A stretch of DNA of 64,000 nucleotides from Armatimonadota bacterium (GCA_016125185.1 WGMG01000002.1:434001-498000), one strand, 5' to 3'. Shown: positions 29,254 through 43,328, counted from the first letter of the stretch. A program made the numbers and translations. Notes: generated by a model from the sequence alone, not told the origin.

Positions 29254-29670
29254 TCACCAACCCTCGGCGCTGCGCCTGGCAGAGAGTACCAATTTAAGAC
29301 CATCACAAATGACCTCAATATATTCTCGTCCGAAGATAGACACACATAGCTTATTAAGCTCAGCCGTAACTTCCACATCATAATTGGCAAGCCACTCAAC
29401 TTCATCTAAGAACGACTCAAATACGGGGAGTTTCGCTAAAAAACGAATCTTATCTTCGCCTATCGACAAATAAGAACCATTCTCTCTCTCCATTGTGTCA
29501 AGAATCATACAACTATTTAGTAGGCAAAGAGTTGCGCGATTCTTATTCGCATTATCCTCTGGCGAAGATTTCTCTCTTCTTCTTGAGAAGCGCCACCTTG
29601 GTCTCATTGATTCATACGATTTCGCAGAGTAATTTTTTGCTAATATTCCAAAGCGACCGCTATATCTCAT
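29254..29670 (-). CDS. orphan ORF downstream of the RHS fragment
   Basis: A 138-residue frame of lower GC than its surroundings. The first 54 residues are basic and Ser/Arg-rich. The last 84, starting at an internal Met (codon near 29508), look more protein-like, acidic with regular hydrophobics (KIRFLAKLPVFESFLDEVEWL). It lies directly after the displaced RHS fragment on the same strand, where a toxin tip or immunity gene would be expected. No family is recognised. The start and even coding status are uncertain. Confidence 0.4.
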   Translation of the reverse strand: MRYSGRFGILAKNYSAKSYESMRPRWRFSRRREKSSPEDNANKNRATLCLLNSCMILDTMERENGSYLSIGEDKIRFLAKLPVFESFLDEVEWLANYDVEVTAELNKLCVSIFGREYIEVICDGLKLVLSARRSAEGW

Positions 29671-29709
29671 ATTCTACTATTAAAAATCTAGCCAATCAGC
29701 ACGGTAGGC

Positions 29710-30071
29710 GAGTTACTCGTGGTTCCGTTGGATACCAACGAGGTCATCCGATTCAGATCATCCCATGTATAGGTTATACCACTCGTTCCTGAACCTTTGG
29801 TCAAGCGATTGCCAAGGATATCATTGGTGTACCCACCGGTCACTCCTGGGCTAGCCGTCATGCGATTTAGATTGTCGTAAGACCACGTTCCTGAATTCGT
29901 CGAATCCGACGCTCGATTGCCCGCCGCATCATAGGTCCACGACGGCGTCGCGTTGGATAGTCCGTCCCCGTAGTTAGCACTTGTTAGGTAGTCCAAATTC
30001 GCATCGTATCCATAGGTTTCGGTTCGTTGGATGTTCCATGAGCCATTCGATACATTGTAATACTTGTTCTG
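29710..30071 (-). pseudogene. displaced RHS core fragment
   Basis: About 120 codons are homologous to the RHS protein at roughly 32149-32510, sharing YGYDANLDYLTSANYGDGL, TYDAAGNRASDSTNSG and DNLNRMTASPGVTGGYTND. Identity is high but not complete (KYYNVSNGS against KFYNVSSGS). The match ends at SLVSNGTTSN, after which this copy reads SPTVLIG and stops. The 5' end starts in unrelated sequence (KGRKEEGERG). No signal peptide or RHS N-terminus is present, so it cannot encode a full RHS protein. Such fragments are the usual residue of tip-exchange at RHS loci. Confidence 0.8.
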
Positions 30072-30407
30072 CGCTGCATTCCTGCATCCTCTTTCGCCTT
30101 CCTCCTTCCGGCCCTTGCCAAGGAGTTTGGCGGACATGGTGCTCCGGCGGATGAAACGGCTACAGCGGACAGGTCAACCTCGGAGCTTCCTGCTTTCGCG
30201 CAAGCGCTACGGCGGACAAGTCGCACATGATCGGATGCCCGTCCGCCGAAGCCGGAGGCGAAGGAGGATACAGGCCACCCCTAGTTGTGAGTTTTACTCT
30301 GGAGTGGAGCGACATCCCGAAAGCCCCAAGCGCATCGGGACGCCTCCCTATTCGGCTCCAACACCTGGAATCTTCGACACGCAGTGGCTCGCCAGTCAAA
30401 GAAGTAG
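30072..30407. other. gap with degenerate direct repeats
   Basis: No gene is supported. GCTACAGCGGACAGGTC (30159-30175) and GCTACGGCGGACAAGTC (30206-30222) are a 17-bp direct repeat with two differences. Further GCGGACA/TCCGCC words lie at about 30130 and 30243. The rest is GC-rich sequence resembling degenerate intergenic repeats. Confidence 0.45.
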
Positions 30408-30740
30408 TTATTTAGCCCGCTTATCGTGGAGTCCTGATGTCAGTTGAGTCCACATTTCTCTAATCTCCAGGCCACTAGCGGGCCCATACTTTCTGCTCAA
30501 ACTTATTATCAGAGGAAGGACAAAAAGTATGATCCAGCAAAGAACGTTACCGATCAAACCAAGCAGACCCGACCCAAACAGCATGACCAATGGACTTAGA
30601 ATCGTCAAGGCCAGAATCAATAACCATAAACAAGTTACTCGAAAATAGCCTCGTATGGTAAAAGCCACGCTTAAGGCACCCGCAAGCAATAATACTGGTA
30701 CTAATATTGAATCTGCAACCATGACAATGATGACATTCAT
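30408..30740 (-). CDS. three-TM small membrane protein, candidate RHS immunity protein
   Basis: A 110-residue product with three hydrophobic segments, about residues 9-28, 36-56 and 62-83, followed by a polar C-terminal tail (KYGPASGLEIREMW). It is on the same strand as, and downstream of, the RHS gene, whose C-terminal tip is itself hydrophobic. Immunity proteins against membrane-acting toxins are often small multi-helix membrane proteins, which makes this a candidate. The 503-bp gap to the RHS gene is longer than usual for such a pair. No family is recognised; the role is inference. Confidence 0.55.
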   Translation of the reverse strand: MNVIIVMVADSILVPVLLLAGALSVAFTIRGYFRVTCLWLLILALTILSPLVMLFGSGLLGLIGNVLCWIILFVLPLIISLSRKYGPASGLEIREMWTQLTSGLHDKRAK

Positions 30741-31243: not shown

Positions 31244-34200
31244 CTATGGATCATCTCCATTGGTCGCTAGTATTAGTAACCTAAGTGCCCCGTTAAATTC
31301 AGCGTAGAAATACATTACTATACAAGCAAGGCCACCGGCCGCACCTAGTACGACTCCAAAACAACCGAGCACTAGTCCAGGCAAATCACATGTGCCAACT
31401 GCGGCGATCACAGCAGCGATAGAGTAGTCCGTAATAGCGTTGCAAAGTTCACCAATCCCATACCACATGAGCATATCATGGATAGTCTCAGAAAAGATCC
31501 TATTACCTTCCCGCGTTTTTGGACAGTCGAGGCCCGCCTTAACACAAAGGTATTCGAGAAAGTGCAGAATCACTTGGATTAGTGCTTCACCCACAGTACT
31601 TTTGCCGCTTCCGTCCACACGATTCAGAGGGTCATTTTTGCAATAGCTGAACCAATTTGAAGTTTGTCGAGCAGTATCTTCGCTCACAAAGCGACCCACC
31701 TGGCAGTCAAAGTAACGAGCCTTCATGTAGATTAGACCAGATTCGTCGTCTTGCTTGTGACCGAGATTGGCGCAATATCGCCCCTTCTGATCACCAGAGG
31801 CTCCGCCTGAGCGCACCTGCCCCCAGGCATCGTAGGTTCGTTCGTCAGAAAGCGACCAAGACGAACCTGACTTCGACAGCATACCTATATTGTTGCCGTG
31901 AGCATCGTATAGTGGATAGGCGACTGTTGTTCCTGAACTGGTGGAACGGGATATGGCGTCGATGCCTCTGGCCCCAAGGGCGTTACGGGTTATGGCCGTG
32001 ACTGAATAGGACACACCCCCATTGGTCGAATTCAGTTCGACATCTTCAATACCCATCTGGCCGTCGTAGCGATACTGCGTCATATCGCTATTGGTAGAAC
32101 CGGCATGGCTTTCCTTTTGCACTCGAAGGCCGTCGGCTCGATACAAGTAATTGCTCGTAGTACCATTGGATACCAACGAGGTCAAGCGATTCAAGTCGTC
32201 CCACGAATACGTCGTAGCGGTCGTTCCAGAACCTTTTGTAAGGCGATTTCCGAAAATGTCGTTGGTATAACCTCCGGTCACTCCCGGCGAGGCCGTCATA
32301 CGATTAAGATTGTCGTAAGACCACGTTCCCGAATTCGTCGAATCGGAGGCGCGATTACCCGCCGCATCATACGTCCAGGAAGGCGTCGCGTTGCTCAGTC
32401 CATCACCGTAGTTCGCCGAGGTCAGGTAGTCCAAGTTAGCGTCGTATCCGTAGGACTCCGTTCGTTGAAGGTTCCAACTTCCGCTACTGACATTATAGAA
32501 CTTATTCTGGGTTTTGAGACCCCGTTTCAGACCGGTCGTCTCGTACACACACTCGTTGGCGCGGATAGGCGTGGAATCGTATGAACTCGTTCCCGGGTTG
32601 TAGGTATCCCACCAGTTGTAGACGCCAAGCGCCCGTCCTCCGCCGTCATAGCTATAGAATGTACGGCCCCGCGTCGCAGCTTTGTGGCTGCTGTCGTAGT
32701 ACGAGGCGCCCCCACTCGGAGTCCAGGTTTGCGGCGTCATCGCGAAGGTTACTTGACGTGGTCGACCGGACGAATCCAAGGCATAGTGAAATTCCTCGGA
32801 AGTTGCGTTGCCGGTGCTGGCGTCTATATTCGTCAGCGCTTGGAATATACGGCTAGGTTGCTCGGCTCCGACATCCACATAATCGTGATACTGCCATTTC
32901 ACCGTGTTCGAAAGTCCAAGTGCCGATTGAGTGACATACGTAGATGTGTCTCGGTCACCGGCCCAGTTGTAGGTGTACGACGTCGAATATGTGTCACTTC
33001 CATTGGTTTCGGTGACGCTCGTCGGCATTCCGATCGAGATCCCGGAAGACGAATATGTCATCGACTGGGACACCCCGCTAAGATTGTCGGTAAAGTTAAG
33101 AACCTGTCCGTTAGTGACGCCCGTCGTTCCATAGGTGTAGGTCACCACTGGCGTCGAGATCGAACCGTCGATCTTTTCGATGCTTTCAATTTGATCATCA
33201 TCGTTGAGGTACGTCGTGTGGTACTCATTCCCTGAAGCGTCTTGAATTGTGACCCCCCTTCCCTTCGAATCATAAGCGAGAGTGTCGGTCGTTCGATTGA
33301 TGCCTCCGTAGTCTTCTATGACTTCATTGGCTTGCCCCCAGCTTCCGTCGGTATCGGCCCCATAACTAGTGTGGGATCGGACGTAGGTATATGGGCTCGT
33401 CGACGTACTTTGAACCTTCCAGACATCAATTGCCCGTCCCTTACTATCGTAGTCGAACAGAACCGAGTAATCGCTAGGATCCGATACTTCTAGTTGATAC
33501 CGCCACCATGTCGAAGAAGGTTGGCCCTGAACTACATAGTCGGGAGGCTGAATATTTGTGTTAACATTGATGTCTGCTCGTGCTTGATCGTAAACCCGAT
33601 AGGTTTGCCCCTTTTTGCCTTGGGTTGCCTGATCATCATAGTAGTCCGTGTAGCTGAGTCGGCCATAGGAATCCTTAATGGCTTTTTGCTGATAGTACTT
33701 CTCGGCTCCCCAATAGGCGTAGGCCGTCGAGGTCGTCCGGTCGAGAACCATGCTGCTTCCGCTTCGCGTGTACTCAGAACCAACTTTTGTGAGCGGGTTG
33801 CCCATAAAGTTATAGGTATTCGTCGAAGTCGCGTAATTCGTCATCGCTGGACCATCGGGCGTTGGGCTGTAGGTACTGTGGAACCGGCTGGGCTGGTTCG
33901 AGTGATCGTACACCCGGTAGGTTTCCGTCATTAGGTTCTGGCTCGGCGTATCGTAGTCCTTTTGCCAGAGGTCGCTGAGGCCCGTAAAGACCACGTAGGT
34001 TGTGTTCGTTTGCCGCGCGATCACGCTGAACGTCGTTCCCGAAACGTTTTGAACAATTTCAAATCCGTGTATGAGGTTGTAGGGCCCCTGGCCGGCGGTA
34101 CCGTCGTAATCGGTACCGGTGTAGTCGAACACATCGGTTACCGGGATGGTTTGGGTTGCGCCATCGAAGAGGAAGAAGTAGTCCGTCTTTACGCCGTTTG

Positions 34201-35497
34201 GCGCAATTTGGCGCCGAGCGGCGGGAGTCCAGCCATATCGAGGAACAAACTCCATGGTGTATGAGATAGACGTTGTCAGGCCGCGCAGATCCGTGATCGA
34301 CGTCATCAGTCCGGTCGCGGCATCGGGACCATAGTTGTAGTTCTCGACCGCATTGCCGTAGCCGTAGGTTGTCGTCTTTCCTCCTGCTGATGTAAAGGAT
34401 GTCAGGTATTCACTGCTGTAAGAATCGTAGCCATAAGTGACGGTACGAACTCCATCCGTGGCCGATGTAAGGCGATTACCCGTCCAGCCAAAGGTGATAT
34501 GATGGCCGTTTGGCATTTGAACATCCGTGAGCGGACGCTCCTTAGTCGTGCCATTGGATTTCGTAAAATTGACCCAAGCCGTCGAGCTATAAGTGTAGGT
34601 GGTCTCGTTGCCATGCCGGTCGGTTGCCTTTGTAATTTTGAGCACATTGGATGGTTCACCAGTTGCCCCCGAATCATCATATGGTCGAGACGCCAAAAGC
34701 GAATGGTCTGGGTTTTCGTACCATCCTTCCTTTTGATACTCGTAAACCGTTCCCTCCGGGGTGTTGACGTAGTTGTGCGTCATGACCTGGTAGTTCACGC
34801 CGTCGATGACTTGGGTTTCGTACTCTGAATCGATCTTATTCTTGTCCCACGGCGGCGTGCTGAGAATTCCATCCGCGTCGCGCTGGATCGTCTCCTCCGT
34901 CCCCGCCGAGTCGGTTGCCATTACCGCCGTGACTGGCGAACTCGTTGAGGAGCCTCCACTGGTCCCGTTGCCGTACACCGCATTCGGGTCGATCTGCGCC
35001 GACGGACGTTCTTTGAAGTTCGTTGGCACCGAGCGAACGGGAGCGCTGCCCGACTTCATGATGCCTCCCGCCGTGCTCCGCACGTCGACCGACAGATTCC
35101 ACCCTTTGCCCAGCGGACCCTCTTCCGCGTTGTTGGCACTATAGCTTCGCGTCACATTCACGGGAATGCCATAACCGTCCTTGAAGCTCAAGTCCGTCGC
35201 CGACATGGTAAAGTTCCCCGTCATCAGGTCGACGCCTTTGTACATCACATCCCACTTGTTTTGACCGGCCGCATACGGATTCTCGCCGGACTTGCCCTGC
35301 GCCGTCTTCATCGTCTTCGCGCTGAGGATCTTTGACGGCGTTGAATCCGGCGTGACCGGCGGCAACTGAGCCTTCACCCACGCCTTGGTATCCCGCACGG
35401 TCTTCGCCCAGGCAAGCCCAGGCACCAAGCAGAAGACAAGGGTAAACGTGCTGAAGACAGCGACGGATTTTCCAAACGGCGAGTTGATGCGAATCAT
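31244..35497 (-). CDS. RHS repeat protein with hydrophobic C-terminal tip
   Basis: A 1417-residue product. A signal peptide (to about residue 31, VPGLAWA) is followed by a domain with YKGVDLMTGNFTMSATDLSF, as in the N-terminal region of many RHS proteins. Long YD/RHS repeats follow (SYTYNWAGDRD, TYDAAGNRASD, YGYDANLDYL). The RHS core ends with LIYMKARYFDCQVGRFVSED and NDPLNRVDGSGK near residue 1305. The last ~110 residues are a separate tip with two Gly-rich hydrophobic segments (IAAVIAAVG, then LVLGCFGVVLGAAGGLACIV). RHS shells enclose and deliver toxic tips; a membrane-inserting tip is suggested here. It is the last gene of a three-gene operon. Confidence 0.92.
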   Translation of the reverse strand: MIRINSPFGKSVAVFSTFTLVFCLVPGLAWAKTVRDTKAWVKAQLPPVTPDSTPSKILSAKTMKTAQGKSGENPYAAGQNKWDVMYKGVDLMTGNFTMSATDLSFKDGYGIPVNVTRSYSANNAEEGPLGKGWNLSVDVRSTAGGIMKSGSAPVRSVPTNFKERPSAQIDPNAVYGNGTSGGSSTSSPVTAVMATDSAGTEETIQRDADGILSTPPWDKNKIDSEYETQVIDGVNYQVMTHNYVNTPEGTVYEYQKEGWYENPDHSLLASRPYDDSGATGEPSNVLKITKATDRHGNETTYTYSSTAWVNFTKSNGTTKERPLTDVQMPNGHHITFGWTGNRLTSATDGVRTVTYGYDSYSSEYLTSFTSAGGKTTTYGYGNAVENYNYGPDAATGLMTSITDLRGLTTSISYTMEFVPRYGWTPAARRQIAPNGVKTDYFFLFDGATQTIPVTDVFDYTGTDYDGTAGQGPYNLIHGFEIVQNVSGTTFSVIARQTNTTYVVFTGLSDLWQKDYDTPSQNLMTETYRVYDHSNQPSRFHSTYSPTPDGPAMTNYATSTNTYNFMGNPLTKVGSEYTRSGSSMVLDRTTSTAYAYWGAEKYYQQKAIKDSYGRLSYTDYYDDQATQGKKGQTYRVYDQARADINVNTNIQPPDYVVQGQPSSTWWRYQLEVSDPSDYSVLFDYDSKGRAIDVWKVQSTSTSPYTYVRSHTSYGADTDGSWGQANEVIEDYGGINRTTDTLAYDSKGRGVTIQDASGNEYHTTYLNDDDQIESIEKIDGSISTPVVTYTYGTTGVTNGQVLNFTDNLSGVSQSMTYSSSGISIGMPTSVTETNGSDTYSTSYTYNWAGDRDTSTYVTQSALGLSNTVKWQYHDYVDVGAEQPSRIFQALTNIDASTGNATSEEFHYALDSSGRPRQVTFAMTPQTWTPSGGASYYDSSHKAATRGRTFYSYDGGGRALGVYNWWDTYNPGTSSYDSTPIRANECVYETTGLKRGLKTQNKFYNVSSGSWNLQRTESYGYDANLDYLTSANYGDGLSNATPSWTYDAAGNRASDSTNSGTWSYDNLNRMTASPGVTGGYTNDIFGNRLTKGSGTTATTYSWDDLNRLTSLVSNGTTSNYLYRADGLRVQKESHAGSTNSDMTQYRYDGQMGIEDVELNSTNGGVSYSVTAITRNALGARGIDAISRSTSSGTTVAYPLYDAHGNNIGMLSKSGSSWSLSDERTYDAWGQVRSGGASGDQKGRYCANLGHKQDDESGLIYMKARYFDCQVGRFVSEDTARQTSNWFSYCKNDPLNRVDGSGKSTVGEALIQVILHFLEYLCVKAGLDCPKTREGNRIFSETIHDMLMWYGIGELCNAITDYSIAAVIAAVGTCDLPGLVLGCFGVVLGAAGGLACIVMYFYAEFNGALRLLILATNGDDP

Positions 35498-35504
35498 AGT
35501 GAGT

Positions 35505-35700
35505 TTCCAGTTTGCGATTGGCAGTTGGCAGAAAAAGTGACGAAGTTGAAATTGTTCGTGATGGGCGACGCGCTAGAAGCTAGTTGCTGGCAACCGGAGC
35601 CTACTTCTTGGCTCCAAGTTTCACGTCCTCGTTTGTCAGAAGGCAGAAGGCAGAAAGCAGAAGGCCCGCAGCAGAATCCTGAATCCTGAAGCCTGCTCCT
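35505..35700. repeat. heptamer-period repeat region, locus 3
   Basis: Between the RHS and C39-like genes, short units at a 7-bp period recur: TTGGCAG twice near 35519-35532, GCTAGAA/GCTAGTT/GCTGGCA near 35572-35592, and CAGAAGG, CAGAAGG, CAGAAAG, CAGAAGG at 35638-35665. Then CAGAATC, CTGAATC, CTGAAGC and CTGCTCC run to the stop codon of the C39-like gene. Confidence 0.75.
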
Positions 35701-36701
35701 CACGACTTCCCTCCCGCTAGCGGCTTCTCGGGCTTGGTCGGCTCGGCGACCAGGTCAGCTTTCGGAAGCTCGAAGGCAAGTCCCATCGCCCGAAAGTCGG
35801 CGTTGTCGGGGGCAGGCAGGGATCGCCACACCTCGTTGTCATAGCGAGAATCGTAGACTCTCATCCGACCTTCCTTAATCTCCAGGACCGCCAAATAGTG
35901 GTCGTTCTGGAGCCAAACAAACGGTTTGGTCAGATGGCAGAAGTCCCGAGCGTTGAGCTCGACACCCACCGCTTCAAGGCCGATCGCGTCGCAACCCTTC
36001 TTGAGGCCTTCTAATGTGGTTCCGCTGTCCGTAGTCCCACACAGCTTGGCCAGCTCCTTATAGTCTTTTTGCGGTTGACCCAGGATTGGCAAAATCTTCT
36101 CTATGCACTTCGGACCACACACGCTCGTTTCGAACCGAATCCGCTTCTCTTGCGCCGCAATCCCGGCCTGTAGCCGAGCTTCATCTTCGGGAAGGTTTTT
36201 CCCGTGCAAACGCTCAAGGCGGCGGAAGCAAGCCGTGATCAACGGACTCTCCTTTCGTTCTTCCATGAACTGGCGATACTCCTTCTCCGCCTCGTCCTTC
36301 TTCCCTTCGGCGTCCACGCACACAATCGCTTGGTAGGCCGCTTGGTCGCTCAGCGTCCCGTAGTCGGGGTCCATCGCGTTCGTGCCTTTGTGCTTGTAGG
36401 CCGCTTCGACGAACTCCGCATGAGCCGCCCCAAAGTCCTTCTTTTTCGCCGCTTCGTAACCCTCCATGATTCGGGCTCGTGTCACCAGCGACTGCACTTC
36501 TTTATCGGAAGAGTTTTCGTTCTGAGCGATGAATTCTTTCGGAGCGTCTTTGACTTCGGACAACTCCTTCCTCGGTAGAGGCTTCGTCGCGTAGGCCGGC
36601 AAAGGATGGCCGTTGTTCTTGTGGGGAGCCAGCAAAACCACTCCTGCCGCGACGGCACCCAACGCGGCGACCGCGAATCCGACTTTCCAAGCCATCTTCA
36701 T
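35700..36701 (-). CDS. membrane-anchored C39-like cysteine peptidase with helical repeat domain
   Basis: A 333-residue product. ATG at 36701 overlaps the upstream stop as TAATG and is preferred to a start 21 nt earlier. There is one TM helix (about 8-25) and a TPR-like helical part (about 65-170). The C-terminal domain has TSVCGPKCI (Cys195), FVWLQNDHYLAVLE (His268) and RVYDSR (Asp284), the Cys-His-Asp order of peptidase family C39. C39 enzymes usually cleave double-Gly leader peptides in ABC exporters, but no ABC transporter is fused here. Position before the RHS gene suggests a role in processing or release of the RHS protein (inference). Confidence 0.8.
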   Translation of the reverse strand: MKMAWKVGFAVAALGAVAAGVVLLAPHKNNGHPLPAYATKPLPRKELSEVKDAPKEFIAQNENSSDKEVQSLVTRARIMEGYEAAKKKDFGAAHAEFVEAAYKHKGTNAMDPDYGTLSDQAAYQAIVCVDAEGKKDEAEKEYRQFMEERKESPLITACFRRLERLHGKNLPEDEARLQAGIAAQEKRIRFETSVCGPKCIEKILPILGQPQKDYKELAKLCGTTDSGTTLEGLKKGCDAIGLEAVGVELNARDFCHLTKPFVWLQNDHYLAVLEIKEGRMRVYDSRYDNEVWRSLPAPDNADFRAMGLAFELPKADLVAEPTKPEKPLAGGKS

Positions 36702-38167
36702 TACGGGTACTTCACCTTCCAAACTCGGGGCTGGCTGTCCGTGTAGGGATACACCTGGCCACTGACCGCTTCAAGCCATGTCGAACCGAAGTACTGCCAC
36801 GTTTGGGCCGTTTCGTCCGTCTGACACAGAGCGAAGTTGCTCCACATACTGTTGTGGGTATTGTTCCCGTCTCCACCGTAAGCCGTCTGCCAAACTTCGC
36901 TGACCGGCGGCGTCTGCCAGTTGAGGAAGTTGTCGACGTCGGTCGAGCCCGGTGCCACCGTATAGTACGGCGCATTGATGAAGTCGCCCGCCGCCGTCTG
37001 TGTTCCGCCGGGATTAACCGTCCATCGACGAGTCCAGTTTGCGTTCAGACCTTGAGAAATGTACGTATCCGAGGAGGAAGGCCGAAACAAACCAATCGTG
37101 CCGGAGCTCACCGACGAACCGCCATGAAGCATCCTCGCACCGGTGTCGAAGCAAGTCAGACAAGCGTACAGATAGGTGGTCGCGTCTCCGGCTGTTGTCA
37201 ATTGCAACTGTGTCCGCGCGGTGCCGCTCTGGTCATTCGCCGAGCTGTAGGACAAGTTCCCCACGAAATGCCCGCCATGAAAAATCCAGGGCTGGAACAC
37301 GTTCGTCGTCAAGTCGGCGTTCGGATCACCCGGCAATTCGCCATCGATGTTCGCTTTTCCGAAGACCCGCCGCGAGTCCAGACTGATGGATGTCAGGTTG
37401 ACTCGGTCAACCTCAAGTGCGATCTTGTACCAGTTCGAACCATAGGTCGTATTGTATGCAGGAGGGTTTGAGCCTGGAATTAGGTAGGTATAGGCCGTAT
37501 CCTTTCGAACATAGAAGTTCAGACTTCCACTCGAAAGGGCCGCGTTCTGGTTACCAAGTTGAACGTAGGCTGGCCAGTCGGATAGCTGATTGACACCGCC
37601 ATACCCAGGCGCGTCAGTCACCGCGCAGGCAACGTCTGACAGGAGGTTGTTGTTGGTGTCGTAAACTGGGGTGATGGTACTGGAGTAGATCGTCGGCAAC
37701 GAACCACTGCTTCCTAGTTCAACTCCGCTGGGGACTGCGACACCAGTAATCAAAGAGTAGTCAGGACCATGCGGATTGCTGTTGTAAATGCAAGGACAAA
37801 TGATCTTGAGGCGAACGACATGCCGATCTGACTGAGGTGAAACCAGGTTTCCACCCGACAGATACTGCGAAGGAGCGTGAAGCTTTTCCTCCAACTTCGT
37901 CAAGGTCACGTAAACAAGACTCGACCCTCCGCCGTCCCCGGCAGTCGCGCCAGTCGTCCCCGTCGTACTGGTCGTTGAAGTGCTGCTCGTTGTCGAAGTT
38001 GTACTGGTGGTCGATGTCGTACTAGTTGTCGAAGACGTACTCGTCGTTCCGCTCGTGACCTGCACACCCGTCGTACCCGCACCAGGCTGAGCGCTCGAAA
38101 AGAGAATTCCCGCTAAGAGAATCCCGACGACCGCCAGCGATTTCAAAGTTGTACTACCGCGTTCCAA
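36701..38167 (-). CDS. secreted Ser/Thr-rich protein, first gene of the RHS operon
   Basis: A 488-residue product with a TTG start, supported by AAGGGA about 5 nt upstream. The signal peptide (SLAVVGILLAGILFSSAQ) is followed by a Ser/Thr tract (about 38-72, many STT units). The remaining ~400 residues are beta-rich, with paired Cys (CPC and CLTC) and many Tyr, Asn and Trp residues. No family is recognised. It is translationally coupled to the C39-like gene through TAATG. Composition fits a surface or extracellular partner of the RHS protein, possibly an anchor or delivery protein, but there is no direct evidence. Confidence 0.75.
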   Translation of the reverse strand: MERGSTTLKSLAVVGILLAGILFSSAQPGAGTTGVQVTSGTTSTSSTTSTTSTTSTTSTTSSTSTTSTTGTTGATAGDGGGSSLVYVTLTKLEEKLHAPSQYLSGGNLVSPQSDRHVVRLKIICPCIYNSNPHGPDYSLITGVAVPSGVELGSSGSLPTIYSSTITPVYDTNNNLLSDVACAVTDAPGYGGVNQLSDWPAYVQLGNQNAALSSGSLNFYVRKDTAYTYLIPGSNPPAYNTTYGSNWYKIALEVDRVNLTSISLDSRRVFGKANIDGELPGDPNADLTTNVFQPWIFHGGHFVGNLSYSSANDQSGTARTQLQLTTAGDATTYLYACLTCFDTGARMLHGGSSVSSGTIGLFRPSSSDTYISQGLNANWTRRWTVNPGGTQTAAGDFINAPYYTVAPGSTDVDNFLNWQTPPVSEVWQTAYGGDGNNTHNSMWSNFALCQTDETAQTWQYFGSTWLEAVSGQVYPYTDSQPRVWKVKYP

Positions 38168-38566: not shown

Positions 38567-40213
38567 ATGCTTAGGAGATACGCTTGGATTTTGGTGCCCC
38601 TCGTCATCCTCGGCGGGCTCATCGGCTGGCGGGTCAAGACCAAATCCGGCACGGACCAACAGCTTAAAGGAGGCATGCGCGGAGGAGGCGGCAAGGCCCA
38701 ATCCGTCGAAGCCGTCGTCGCCGGACCAGCCACCATCGCTGGAACCATCATCGCCGCCGGAAGCCTCGACTCCCCCTACAAGGTCCAGCTCGCCCCCCGC
38801 ACCGCCGGCAAAATCCTCAGCCTTAGCGTCCGCGAAGGCGACGCCGTCACCGCCGGTCAAACCCTGGTCAAAATCGACCCCGCTACCGCCATCGCCGGTC
38901 TAAACCAAGCCGAAGCCAACCTCGCCCAGGCCCAAGCCCGACTCGCCCAAGCCAAGATCGAGGCCGCCCCGAACTCCGCCTCCGTCTCCGGCCAGATCGA
39001 CCAACAAGGCGCCGCCCTCAAAAGCTCCCAGGCCGAGCTCACCCAAACCCAAAAGACCGTCGATGCCAACATCAGCAGTCTCACCAGCGCCGTCAGCGAC
39101 GCCCAGGCGAAGGTCGACACCGCCCAAGCAAGTCTCACCACCGCCAACGCCAATCTCGCCAAAGAAAAGTCCACCCGCGAAAACCTAAAAATCAAAGCCG
39201 ACCGCGCCAAAGAGCTCCTCGATCAAGGCTATATCGCCCAAAAGGACTGGGAAGACGCCACCACCGCCCTCGACGTCCAAGACAAGCAAGTCCAAATCGC
39301 CATCGCCAACGTCGCCTCCGCCAAGCTCGCTGTCCAGACCGCAAAAAACCAGTCAACCCAAGCTCAAACCCAACTGGACATCGCCAAGACTAAGGGCAAA
39401 GCCGACATCGCCGCCGCGAAGGCCAAAGTCAATCAATCCCAATCCAGCCTCGCCGTTGCCAAGGCCAATAAGGCGATGAACCCTGCCTACGACGAAAACA
39501 TCAAGGCCCTCTCCGCTGCCGTTGCCGTCACCCAGGCGCAGGTCGCCCAGGCCCGCGTCCTGGTCAGCGAGACCGATCTCAAAAGCTCCATCAACGGTGT
39601 CGTCACCGCCCGCAACGCCGACGAAGGGGCGCTCGCCTCCCCCGGCAACCCCGTACTCGTCATCCAGTCCCTCGATTGGCTGTTCTTCGTCGCCTCTATC
39701 CCCGTCGAGCAGGGCGACAAGGTCCATGTCGGCCAAAGCGCCACCATCCAGATGGAAGGCATCGGAAACAAAACGGTCCAAGGCTCAATCACGAGCATCA
39801 ACCCCTCCGCCGACCCCGCCAGCCGCCAGATCGCCCTCCGCATCCGCGTCGAAAACCCCGATCACCGCCTTCGCCCCGGTATGTTCGGCAAAATCAACTT
39901 CCCCATCGATGCTCGCCGTGTCGAAGTCGCTCTCCCCAAAGAAGCCATCACCTACGGCGTCAACAAAACCACCGTCGCCGTGGTCGGAGACGACAATAAA
40001 ATTCAAATTCGCAATGTCGTCCTCGGCGTTGCGGACGAAACCACCATCGAGATCAAGTCCGGTGTCAAAGCCGGCGAAAAGGTCGTCACCCTCAGCTACA
40101 ACCCGCTGAAGGACGGCACCGAGGTCAAGATCGGCTCCGACAAAGCGGACAAAGGCGACAAACCCGACGACGGATCAAAGAAGCAGGGCCGAGGAAAGCG
40201 TGAATCTAGCTAA
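38567..40213 (+). CDS. RND efflux pump periplasmic adaptor (membrane fusion protein)
   Basis: A 548-residue product with an N-terminal TM anchor (WILVPLVILGGLIGW). A lipoyl-type motif (LAPRTAGKILSLSVREGDAV, then GQTLVKID) is followed by a long Ala/Gln/Lys coiled-coil hairpin (about 108-335), longer than usual for the family. A second lipoyl half (DLKSSINGVVTARNADEGAL), beta-barrel and membrane-proximal domains follow, then a Lys/Asp-rich tail. It links the inner-membrane pump to an outer-membrane channel. It overlaps the pump gene by 14 nt. No ribosome-binding site precedes the ATG, so the mRNA may be leaderless. Confidence 0.92.
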   Translation: MLRRYAWILVPLVILGGLIGWRVKTKSGTDQQLKGGMRGGGGKAQSVEAVVAGPATIAGTIIAAGSLDSPYKVQLAPRTAGKILSLSVREGDAVTAGQTLVKIDPATAIAGLNQAEANLAQAQARLAQAKIEAAPNSASVSGQIDQQGAALKSSQAELTQTQKTVDANISSLTSAVSDAQAKVDTAQASLTTANANLAKEKSTRENLKIKADRAKELLDQGYIAQKDWEDATTALDVQDKQVQIAIANVASAKLAVQTAKNQSTQAQTQLDIAKTKGKADIAAAKAKVNQSQSSLAVAKANKAMNPAYDENIKALSAAVAVTQAQVAQARVLVSETDLKSSINGVVTARNADEGALASPGNPVLVIQSLDWLFFVASIPVEQGDKVHVGQSATIQMEGIGNKTVQGSITSINPSADPASRQIALRIRVENPDHRLRPGMFGKINFPIDARRVEVALPKEAITYGVNKTTVAVVGDDNKIQIRNVVLGVADETTIEIKSGVKAGEKVVTLSYNPLKDGTEVKIGSDKADKGDKPDDGSKKQGRGKRESS

Positions 40214-43200
40214 GTTCGCCGTTACTCGCCCCGTCGCGGTGACCATGCGCATCGCCAGCCTGGTCGTCCTCGGCTTCATCTGCCTTCTGCGACTCCCTAT
40301 CGACCTGCTCCCTCGCATCGACATCCCCATCGTCGCCGTCTCCGTCAACTGGCCAAACACCTCGCCCGAGGAGATGGAGACCCAGATCACGCGTCCCATC
40401 GAGCAGGCTGTCGGCTCTCTTCGCGGCCTCAACATGGTCAGTTCCAGCTCGTCCCAGGGGAGCACCTTCGTCCGCGTCCAGCTCAACTACGGGGTCGATG
40501 TCGACGCCGCGTCGATCGACGTCATGCAGATGGTCCAGCGTGCCGTCGGCAGCTTCCCCAACGATCCAACGATCTCCCCGCCCCGCATCTTCAAGTTCGA
40601 CCCGTCCACCTTGCCGATCCTCATGTACGGCATCCAGGGCCCCGACGAAGACCTGATCAAGCTTCGCTCCAAGATGATCAACGAGATCAGCCCGCAGATC
40701 GAAGCCGCCGACGGCGTGGCCGCCGTCAACATCTCTGGTGGTGAGGACCGCGCCATCATGGTCGAGGTCGATCCCGAAAAACTGAAGTCGCGCAACCTCT
40801 CCATCGCCCAGCTTTCCGCCAAGATCAGCGCCGAAAACATCAGCCTTCCCGCTGGCTCCGCCATTCAGGGCAAAACCCAATACACCATTCGAAGCGTCGG
40901 CTACTTCAAGAGCCTCGACGAGCTTCGCATGATGCCGATCGGAAGCTACAACGGCAACCTCGTCCGCCTCCAAGAGGTCGCCAACGTCCGCGACGCCAGC
41001 CAGGACATCCTCTCCTACACGCGCGTCAACGGCAAGCCCGCCCTCGTGATGACCGTCACGAAGCAAAACGACGCGAACACCGTCGAGACTTCCAAGAACG
41101 TCGAAAAGGTCCTCGCCGATATCGAGCATCGCGACCCGAGTTTGCACTTCGCCAAGGCGTACGATCAGGCCAAATTCATCTCCGATTCCGTCGACGACCT
41201 CTTCCACACCGCAGTCATCGGCGCAATCCTTGCCATCCTCATCATCACCTTCTTCCTCCGCAACCTCAAGAGCACCTTCGTCGTCGCCCTCTCGATCCCT
41301 ATCTCGATCATCTCGACCTTCACCCTGCTCTACTTCTGCGGATTCACGCTCAATACCATTTCGCTCAGCGGACTAGCCCTCGCCTCCGGTCTCATCGTCG
41401 ATGACGCTATCGTCGTGCTCGAAAACATCTATCGGCACATCGAAAAAGCCAAGCAGGGGCGCGTCGACGCCGCCATCTCCGGCACTCAAGAAATCCTTTC
41501 CGCCGTCTTCGCCTCCACGTTCACCATCATGATCGTCTTCCTCCCGCTTCTGCTCATCAAGGGCCAGTCGGGACAGATCTTCACCCAGTTCGCGCTCGTC
41601 ATCATCTTCTCCCTCGCTGTCTCGCTTCTCGATGCAACCAGCATCGTCCCCATGCTCACCTCGCGCATGGTCAGCGAAGAGGAAGTGCTCGAAGAAGCCG
41701 ACCCCGAAAACCATCCCCACAAAAAGGTCACGCCCGTCACGCGGTTCATGGATTGGGCCGGAACCGTCCTCCACCGCCTCGATTCAGCCTACCGGCGAGG
41801 ATTGGAATGGACTCTCAGCCGACGCGGAACCGTACTTCTCATCGGCGGGCTCAGCGTCATTGGCGCACTCCTCATCTGGCCGATGGTCGGCAAAGAAAAC
41901 TTCCCCAAGAGCGATAGCGGCAACCTCAACGTCCGTCTCCGACTCCCCATCGGCACCCCCGTCAACGTCACTGACGGCCTCGTCAAACAGATGGAAGCGA
42001 TCATCCTTGCCGACAAGGACGTCGATGTCGTCATCGCTGGAGCCGGTGCAAACGTCGGTCTCCGCGGCGCCGGTGGTGGCGGACCCAATAACGGCTCTGC
42101 CACCGTCCAGCTCAAACTCAATCGCAAGTCCTCCACCGAAGAGGTCATCAAGCGGCTCCAGGGCAAGCTAGCCGTCCTCCCCGGTGTCCGCGCCCAGGTC
42201 TCGCCTCTCGACGTCGTTCAGAACATCCTCGGCAACAGCACCGGCTTCGGCGTCGATGTCTATGGCCAAGACCTCCCCTCTCTCACCGCCGCCGCCAAGA
42301 TGGTGGAGGAAACCCTCAGCAAGGTTCCGGGCCTCCAAAACGTCGACGTCAGCGTTGACGACACCTTGCCGGAAATCGAGATGTCCGTCAACCGCGAAAA
42401 GGCTTCGACCTTAGGCGTCTCGTTCAACGACGTCGCCAGCGTCATCTCCAGTAGCACCAGCGGCAAACTCTCCAGCTACTACCAGGAGAAAGGCTTCCAA
42501 TATCCGATTTACGTGCAGGTTCCTGAGGACAAGCGGCAGACCATCGAACAGCTCGAAAACCTGCCCGTCACCACTCAGAACGGAACCACCATCATCCTCG
42601 GCCAAGTCGCCAACGCCGCATACGGCATGGGCCCGACCCAGATTTCTCGTCAAAACCGACAGCGCGTCATCAGCGTGGGCGGTAACGTCCAAGACCGGTC
42701 GGATAGCGACGTCCAAGCCGACGCTCTTGCCGCCCTCGCCAAGCTCAAAATGCCCGAGGGCACCTACTACACCCTCGGCGTCCGCCAGCTTCAGCAGGGG
42801 CAGGAATACTCCGGTCTCGGCCTCGCCGTGGTCCTCGCTGTCGCACTCATCTACATGCTTCTCGCTGCACAGTTCGAGTCGTTCCTCTACCCGCTGGTCG
42901 TGCTCTTTTCGGTCCCGCTATGCGCCATCGGCTTTGTCCTCGCGCTCTTCCTCACTGACCGCGCCTTCGGCCTTACCGCCTTCATCGGCCTCCTCATGCT
43001 CGTCGGAATCTCGGTCAAAAACGGCATCTTGCTGGTGGATTACACCAACCAACTCCGCGCCCGTGGCATCGACCGTCACGATGCGCTTCTTACCGCAGGA
43101 CCAACCCGTCTCCGCCCGATTCTCATGACCTCGCTCTGCGCGATCCTCGGCATGGCTCCGCTCGCTCTCGGAATCGGCACCGGCTCCGAACTCTACGTCC

Positions 43201-43328
43201 CGCTAGCTACTGCCGTCATGGGCGGCCTCGCAACCTCGACCATCCTCACCCTATTCGTCATCCCCGCCGTTTACACCATCTTCGACGACATCAAAGCCAA
43301 GTACTACGCGAGAAAAGAAGCGAAGTAA
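40200..43328 (+). CDS. RND efflux pump inner-membrane transporter (AcrB/HAE1 type)
   Basis: A 1042-residue transporter starting at GTG behind GAGGAAA. The N-terminus NLAKFAVTRPVAVTM and the pattern TM1, large periplasmic loop, TM2-6, second loop, TM8-12 fit the hydrophobe/amphiphile RND family. SGLALASGLIVDDAIVVLEN contains the Asp pair of TM4 used for proton transfer. Two porter domains of similar fold are present (40-330 and about 560-860). With the adaptor it would export drugs or metabolites using the proton gradient. No TolC-type outer-membrane component is encoded here, so one must be supplied from elsewhere. Confidence 0.95.
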   Translation: MNLAKFAVTRPVAVTMRIASLVVLGFICLLRLPIDLLPRIDIPIVAVSVNWPNTSPEEMETQITRPIEQAVGSLRGLNMVSSSSSQGSTFVRVQLNYGVDVDAASIDVMQMVQRAVGSFPNDPTISPPRIFKFDPSTLPILMYGIQGPDEDLIKLRSKMINEISPQIEAADGVAAVNISGGEDRAIMVEVDPEKLKSRNLSIAQLSAKISAENISLPAGSAIQGKTQYTIRSVGYFKSLDELRMMPIGSYNGNLVRLQEVANVRDASQDILSYTRVNGKPALVMTVTKQNDANTVETSKNVEKVLADIEHRDPSLHFAKAYDQAKFISDSVDDLFHTAVIGAILAILIITFFLRNLKSTFVVALSIPISIISTFTLLYFCGFTLNTISLSGLALASGLIVDDAIVVLENIYRHIEKAKQGRVDAAISGTQEILSAVFASTFTIMIVFLPLLLIKGQSGQIFTQFALVIIFSLAVSLLDATSIVPMLTSRMVSEEEVLEEADPENHPHKKVTPVTRFMDWAGTVLHRLDSAYRRGLEWTLSRRGTVLLIGGLSVIGALLIWPMVGKENFPKSDSGNLNVRLRLPIGTPVNVTDGLVKQMEAIILADKDVDVVIAGAGANVGLRGAGGGGPNNGSATVQLKLNRKSSTEEVIKRLQGKLAVLPGVRAQVSPLDVVQNILGNSTGFGVDVYGQDLPSLTAAAKMVEETLSKVPGLQNVDVSVDDTLPEIEMSVNREKASTLGVSFNDVASVISSSTSGKLSSYYQEKGFQYPIYVQVPEDKRQTIEQLENLPVTTQNGTTIILGQVANAAYGMGPTQISRQNRQRVISVGGNVQDRSDSDVQADALAALAKLKMPEGTYYTLGVRQLQQGQEYSGLGLAVVLAVALIYMLLAAQFESFLYPLVVLFSVPLCAIGFVLALFLTDRAFGLTAFIGLLMLVGISVKNGILLVDYTNQLRARGIDRHDALLTAGPTRLRPILMTSLCAILGMAPLALGIGTGSELYVPLATAVMGGLATSTILTLFVIPAVYTIFDDIKAKYYARKEAK

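Follow-up and report, generated by a model that had tools for sequence, protein, structure and literature searches.

The window analysed here, a stretch of 64,000 nt from the genome of an Armatimonadota bacterium (GCA_016125185.1), carries a three-gene operon that, judged from its sequence and that of its relatives, is a real and conserved variant of the Sec-exported RHS polymorphic toxins, one that brings a TPR-C39 peptidase of its own as well as a CBM96-like partner. We refer to the genes, in order of transcription, as A (the CBM96-like partner), B (the peptidase) and C (the RHS protein). Gene order, an invariant triad, protein families, gene fusions and tip polymorphism together make it probable, in our judgement, that the operon spreads a WapA-kind RHS toxin over three genes, with the C39 enzyme cutting C in trans and A acting as an anchor. 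A literature search found no description of this operon.

Layout of the locus

By ORF calling, A (38167–36701), B (36701–35700) and C (35497–31244) all lie on the minus strand. The stop codon of A (TAA, 36703–36701) overlaps the ATG of B, which begins at 36701, and 202 nt separate B from C. ORF positions and the TAATG overlap agree with the earlier sequence-only reading, which had described three genes on one strand, with the peptidase gene coupled through TAATG. Downstream of C, the locus probably reaches to about 29254, taking in the tip/immunity region and an RHS fragment. The genome (4.5 Mb in 13 contigs) has a single copy of B, and its second RHS gene has neither A nor B adjoining. The features of the locus, in window coordinates, are as follows.

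36701..38167, minus: gene A, 488 aa, predicted secreted protein with an N-terminal hydrophobic segment, a variable Ser/Thr linker and a conserved C-terminal beta domain
37928..38077, minus: Ser/Thr-rich tract of A, approximately residues 31–80 (sequence, alignment)
36704..37309, minus: CBM96/DNRLRE-like core of A, residues 287–488 (alignment, fold match, profiles)
36699..36703, minus: TAATG, overlap of the A stop and the B start (sequence and junction survey)
35700..36701, minus: gene B, 333-aa membrane-anchored TPR-C39 peptidase (Pfam, AlphaFold, Foldseek)
36630..36692, minus: predicted N-terminal membrane helix of B, residues 4–24 (AlphaFold)
36123..36572, minus: TPR-like helical part of B, residues 44–193 (AlphaFold; TPR among the weaker fold matches; TPR Pfam matches in L130)
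35775..36119, minus: C39 domain of B, residues 195–309 (Pfam, alignment, AlphaFold, Foldseek)
36119–36117, 35900–35898 and 35852–35850, minus: codons of the B triad Cys195, His268 and Asp284, respectively
31244..35497, minus: gene C, 1417-aa RHS protein (ORF, Pfam, NCBIfam)
35405..35497, minus: signal-like N-terminal segment of C, approximately residues 1–31 (hydrophobic sequence; a like segment in homologues)
35078..35233, minus: DUF6531 match of C, residues 89–140, ending at profile position 53
35063..35068, minus: Gly144-Gly145 of C, candidate C39 cleavage site (G[GAS] in 21/21)
31604..31834, minus: Rhs_assc_core of C, residues 1222–1298, with Asp1274 and Asp1295
31247..31603, minus: polymorphic C-terminal tip of C, 119 aa, with two predicted hydrophobic segments
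30408..30740, minus: 110-aa membrane protein and immunity candidate, starting 504 nt past the end of C
29688..30137, minus: ORF with an out-of-place RHS fragment that shares 91% identity with C residues 996–1116 and has lost its tip

Conservation of gene order and gene fusions

B was matched in 25 of the 113 genomes of the class (Armatimonadota), some of these matches being weak and inside long ORFs; a single-sequence scan of genome contigs with B gave no match. The A profile matched 21 of the 113 genomes, and B is present in all 21. Nearly every full-length locus on a sufficiently long contig shows the order A-B-C on one strand, and this order recurs in ∼20 other loci of the class, across many genera and nearly always with tight junctions. 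One further copy (L054) is decayed, and the contigs of two loci (L036 and L053) stop ahead of C. The A-B gap is −4 to +19 nt in every locus with an identified A, and the B-C gap in relatives ranges from −4 to +68 nt, with L039 (654 nt, with an extra ORF) and L055 (an unclear overlap) as the exceptions; these values are biased toward short gaps because the start closest to the preceding stop was taken. Distances between loci are correlated among A, B and C (Mantel r 0.55–0.75, with 0 of 2000 permutations as high; 0.75 for B-C vs 0.55 for A-B), which fits inheritance of A-B-C as one unit.

Outside the class but within the same phylum, a B-like gene lies upstream of an RHS gene in L121, L122, L123, L124, L127, L134, and L136, and adjoins one in a different arrangement in L120, L125, and L126. 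In L136, B adjoins the RHS gene and no A is recognisable. No RHS neighbour was found for a full-length B relative (L133) or for C39 proteins of other kinds in the phylum (L137–L139). In three genomes (L130, L131, and L132), C39 and RHS occur in a single protein; L130 has two tandem genes, the first with Pfam matches to TPR (residues 42–141), C39 (176–298), DUF6531 (343–418) and 16 RHS repeats. The association of peptidase and RHS protein is conserved and sometimes takes the form of a fusion; its lack elsewhere, one of the two outcomes that the sequence-only reading had named as refuting, was not observed. Those relatives of the RHS gene that carry a name belong to the Armatimonadetes and include several Fimbriimonadaceae. 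In 21 loci of other phyla, found through an alignment of the RHS N-terminal region, the flanking DNA that was analysed contains no member of the A or B family.

Protein B is a TPR-C39 protein with an invariant triad

By its predicted fold and its Cys-His-Asp triad, B belongs to peptidase family C39. It matches Pfam Peptidase_C39 with an E-value of 1.9e-10 (41 bits vs a cut-off of 22), and its AlphaFold model (mean pLDDT 87) combines an N-terminal helix, TPR-like helices and a C39 fold. For this fold, Foldseek ranks the ComA and PCAT1 peptidase domains as the nearest solved structures. These results bear out the earlier description of B as a membrane-anchored C39-like protein with a TPR-like part, and the site predicted for it, Cys195-His268-Asp284, lies on the C39 fold, contrary to the second refuting outcome named there, a fold without this site. 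The membrane and ATPase domains of ABC exporters are absent from B, which has 333 aa and one predicted membrane helix.

The three triad residues are invariant in 23 of 23 B homologues that share 23–55% identity with the B of the window, a constancy that one would not expect if the enzyme were inactive. Also common to the homologues are G196, P197, G227, G241, and P260, together with Y123 and R161 in the helical part. Many C39 peptidases have a Gln at position −6 before the Cys; the B homologues lack it, and its catalytic role has been doubted even in LahT (PMC6363468).

A conserved double glycine in the N-terminal region of C

At Gly144-Gly145 of C, the C39-linked RHS proteins of the class have GG in 19 cases, GS in one and GA in one (n = 21). 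It is the sole fully conserved G[GAS] in these proteins, and one other place exceeds 60% (15/21). C39 peptidases cut leaders ending in GG, GA or GS, and the ComA consensus has Glu at −8 and Leu at −7 (PMC6363468). Asp138, at −8 of the glycine pair, is invariant in the C39-linked RHS proteins of the class, and an acidic residue at this position is part of the DUF6531 fold in many controls without C39 too. The pair opens an insert that breaks DUF6531; matches to this profile end at position 53–54 of 74 in most C39-linked RHS proteins, whereas they run full length in most other RHS proteins of the class. No double glycine was seen in the control RHS proteins without C39 that were read out, among them the product of the other RHS gene in this genome. 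Since the C39-linked RHS proteins of the class belong to a single clade, this contrast does not amount to many independent observations.

The earlier suggestion that the C39 protein processes the RHS protein has thereby gained a unique conserved double glycine in the RHS N-terminal region and is now the leading idea; the cleavage itself we infer. A double glycine is missing from the equivalent place in the phylum's more distant C39-linked RHS proteins, and the site was therefore rejected as an explanation of all C39-RHS pairs. The GG motif and the C39 partner may share only ancestry. At the TGN motif, taken as the counterpart of the Glu autocleavage site of type VI secretion system (T6SS) effectors, the proteins studied here have Asn, Asp or Thr, as do controls without C39.

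Protein A, a possible detached surface domain

The 22 A homologues share invariant residues in the C-terminal part (R266, G298, G299, F301, G303, D312, S314, G315, W378, and W483); the Ser/Thr tract is a variable linker that is not kept as a tract among them. The A of the window has no Pfam match and no direct CBM96 match, and no match to solved structures was obtained by sequence. The top fold matches of its medium-quality model (pLDDT 63) are carbohydrate-binding modules, namely 8wab (chondroitin sulphate) and 7vbo (alginate). Pfam CBM96 is matched above the cut-off by the distant A proteins whose genes precede B in L121 and L123, that of L121 also matches NCBIfam DNRLRE, and the A profile aligns with the profiles of both over residues 287–488 with a probability of 97. 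In L193, CBM96 is fused ahead of DUF6531-RHS. From the CBM96/DNRLRE links of the distant A proteins and this fusion, we read A, with moderate confidence, as a surface domain that has become detached from an RHS toxin of the WapA-like kind.

Protein C, its polymorphic tips and candidate immunity proteins

C contains DUF6531 (Pfam), an Rhs_assc_core (NCBIfam) and a YD/RHS shell recovered in an alignment of 22 RHS proteins. Asp1274 and Asp1295 are present in each of the 18 sequences extending as far as the core and match by position the conserved Asp pair of other RHS core motifs. The RHS core motif has been given as DPxG-x18-DPxG (PMC12704120), and autocleavage at the RHS core has been assigned to an aspartyl protease domain (PMC8636562).

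The tips, approximately 128 residues long, vary from locus to locus, and 34 of them fall into 26 clusters (control L060 left out). At least one hydrophobic segment is predicted in 27 of the 34; some tips (L040, L042, L046, and L056) are not hydrophobic. Compared with Pfam, the tips match no toxin family above the cut-off, and a weak match of a single tip to Ntox25 (E = 0.054) was set aside. Overlapping the tips or trailing them are small proteins, often with two to four hydrophobic segments, which are followed downstream by extra RHS fragments that bear different tips, as spare cassettes. On sequence evidence, this succession of tip, small membrane protein and spare fragment is the pattern of tip/immunity cassettes. 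For the candidate immunity protein of the window, the other loci offer no clear relative. GC content falls to 48% at 30–32 kb of the window, a drop that is common in exchanged cassettes.

Proposed mechanism and alternatives

Passage of C across the inner membrane looks Sec-dependent and would proceed via its signal segment. C would then fold into an RHS cocoon enclosing the C-terminal tip, which a cut through the conserved Asp pair would free inside the cocoon. B, tethered by its N-terminal helix at the outer face of the inner membrane, would bind C, probably via the TPR part, and cut its N-terminal region, most likely after Gly144-Gly145, thereby releasing the cocoon from the N-terminal segment or uncapping it. 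A dedicated peptidase acting in trans would in this way replace the missing Glu autocleavage. The CBM96/DNRLRE-like beta domain of A would hold the complex to a polysaccharide of the envelope or of the target as its putative ligand; passage across the outer membrane is presumed. Most tips may be membrane-active toxins directed against other bacteria, with the small membrane proteins as immunity. A more specific formulation, which we put forward tentatively as the less probable part of this account, is that a C39 domain of the leader-cutting, ABC-exporter type has become a separate, TPR-guided extracytoplasmic enzyme that cuts an RHS cocoon at an inserted N-terminal GG, doing in trans what T6SS Rhs effectors do by autocleavage at their N-terminus.

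That the genes are unrelated and neighbours by chance might be read from the 202-nt B-C gap and from the second RHS gene of the genome, which stands without A or B. We give this explanation next to no credence; it is refuted by the comparative data, with the same order in ∼20 other loci from many genera and with fusions in addition. B might instead process A, with C as merely co-expressed cargo. The invariant G298-G299 of A, and its position directly upstream with a stop/start overlap, would suit such a substrate, but the GG lies within the predicted beta domain and has no acidic residue at −8, L136 has B beside an RHS gene without a recognisable A, B and C are fused in three genomes, and the B-C distance correlation exceeds that of A-B; we regard A as an improbable substrate.

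B could also serve the RHS protein as a non-catalytic scaffold or chaperone, in the manner of HlyB, whose C39-like domain is degenerate. Such degenerate domains recruit the substrates of toxin exporters (PMC6363468), the TPR-like part is typical of protein binding, and the −6 Gln is absent. The triad, invariant in 23 homologues, speaks against this, the −6 Gln is of doubtful importance even in LahT, and the chances of a non-catalytic scaffold seem small to us. Similarly unlikely is a surface or matrix protein devoid of toxin, in which the hydrophobic tips would be membrane anchors and A a glycan adhesin. The high share of hydrophobic tips, the resemblance of A to carbohydrate-binding modules and the lack of a tip match to a known toxin family above the cut-off are in line with it. 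Anchors, however, need neither 26 unrelated clusters among 34 tips nor tight downstream partners and spare cassettes, and the tips that are not hydrophobic do not fit. Set against these alternatives, we retain a Sec-exported RHS toxin with a peptidase acting on C.

Relation to known systems

By analogy, the nearest experimental parallel is the srtB-secF-like-wapA locus of S. suis, which encodes a Sec-exported DNRLRE-DUF6531-RHS toxin (PMC12704120). Two cuts are described in WapA, one at the DUF6531 N-terminus and one at the end of the core, and SrtB, a membrane-bound cysteine transpeptidase encoded upstream, is required for killing (PMC12704120). Both loci combine a Sec signal or signal-like segment, a DNRLRE domain or its putative CBM96-like counterpart, DUF6531, an RHS shell, a polymorphic C-terminus and an upstream membrane cysteine enzyme, and the N-terminal and core cuts of WapA would be matched by those proposed for C. 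They differ in that three genes stand in place of one polypeptide and a TPR-C39 protein in place of a sortase and SecF-like protein; the A-B-C operon has no sortase and no SecF-like gene. S. suis is Gram-positive, whereas the phylum of the A-B-C operon lies outside the Gram-positives. The CBM96-like domain sits in the separate protein A and not in C, which has the signal-like segment, so the operon would work like WapA without being a WapA-type member.

With the T6SS Rhs effectors Rhs1, Tse15, and TseI, C shares an RHS shell, a core Asp pair and a polymorphic C-terminal region, a toxin in the effectors and a candidate toxin in C (PMC8636562, PMC11461821). N-terminal processing in these effectors is autocatalytic via a Glu (PMC11461821). 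In contrast to them, C begins with a signal segment and not with a PAAR or clade domain. None of the 113 genomes of the class has the VipB sheath gene, and delivery by a T6SS was rejected, in line with the sequence-only reading, which had seen no type VI genes near the operon. The self-contained export and delivery system that this reading considered is conjectural.

The C39 fold, the triad and a possible double-glycine substrate link B to the C39 domains of ComA, LahT and PCAT1 (PMC6363468). Unlike these, B has no transporter or ATPase part, carries TPR-like helices and a membrane helix, is predicted to be non-cytoplasmic and lacks the −6 Gln. If the proposed processing is correct, a C39 peptidase would be active outside an ABC exporter and on a protein of ∼150 kDa, and a phylum that has received little study would see its Sec-exported RHS toxins provided with a defined processing enzyme and site, in parallel to the sortase of S. 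suis. This suggests that an exporter-type peptidase has been reused for the processing of antibacterial toxins.

In addition, the locus family is a rich source of polymorphic tips, most of them hydrophobic, and of candidate proteins for immunity to them. Their likeness to the ionophore toxins of CDI systems (PMC11630599) is one in kind, with polymorphic hydrophobic C-terminal domains in both and small polymorphic immunity proteins, which here are candidates, but the carrier here is an RHS protein, not CdiA. C39-related peptidases have been described in polymorphic toxin proteins, either as toxins or as releasing peptidases (Zhang et al. 2012, PMC3482391). In contrast to those domains, B is mostly a separate, conserved upstream gene with a TPR-like part, rather than a domain of the tip.

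Flanks and B–C spacer of the operon

Window 35498–35699: 202-nt gap between B and C, with short tandem units
Window 29254–30137: displaced RHS fragment with sequence identity to C, and 138-aa ORF
Window 38567–43328: HlyD/RND-type efflux pair (HlyD_D23 match), divergent from the operon and directly upstream of it

The genes for the TPR-C39 peptidase (B) and the RHS protein (C) are almost contiguous in relatives, whereas in the window they are separated by 202 nt containing the tandem units TTCTGCC and CAGGATT, which occur nowhere else in the window. This near-contiguity in relatives suggests that the gap arose later, through insertion or expansion. The displaced RHS fragment, truncated at its end, shares 91% identity with C residues 996–1116. 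The 138-aa ORF that comes after it has no relatives, and the two together probably represent a decayed tip/immunity cassette.

Fused and decayed loci

L130:4096–13408: tandem gene pair, each gene a TPR-C39-DUF6531-RHS fusion

In both fusions, the Asp position of the catalytic triad appears to be Glu (LQEPG). The operon copy at L054 (genome G063) is in decay, with broken frames, and several pairs of RHS tips and candidate immunity proteins remain open downstream of it.

Other RHS and C39 genes

L060:7502–11875 (contig 6): second RHS gene of the window's genome
L139:2890–6357: two near-adjacent C39 proteins of ∼500 residues each, with the C39 domain C-terminal

The second RHS gene is adjoined by neither B nor A (the secreted CBM96/DNRLRE-like protein), and its product lacks the double glycine, the candidate C39 cut site of C; its tip is longer (181 aa) and hydrophilic, with an HExxH motif. 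The L139 pair, which has no RHS neighbor, probably represents another C39 family of the phylum.
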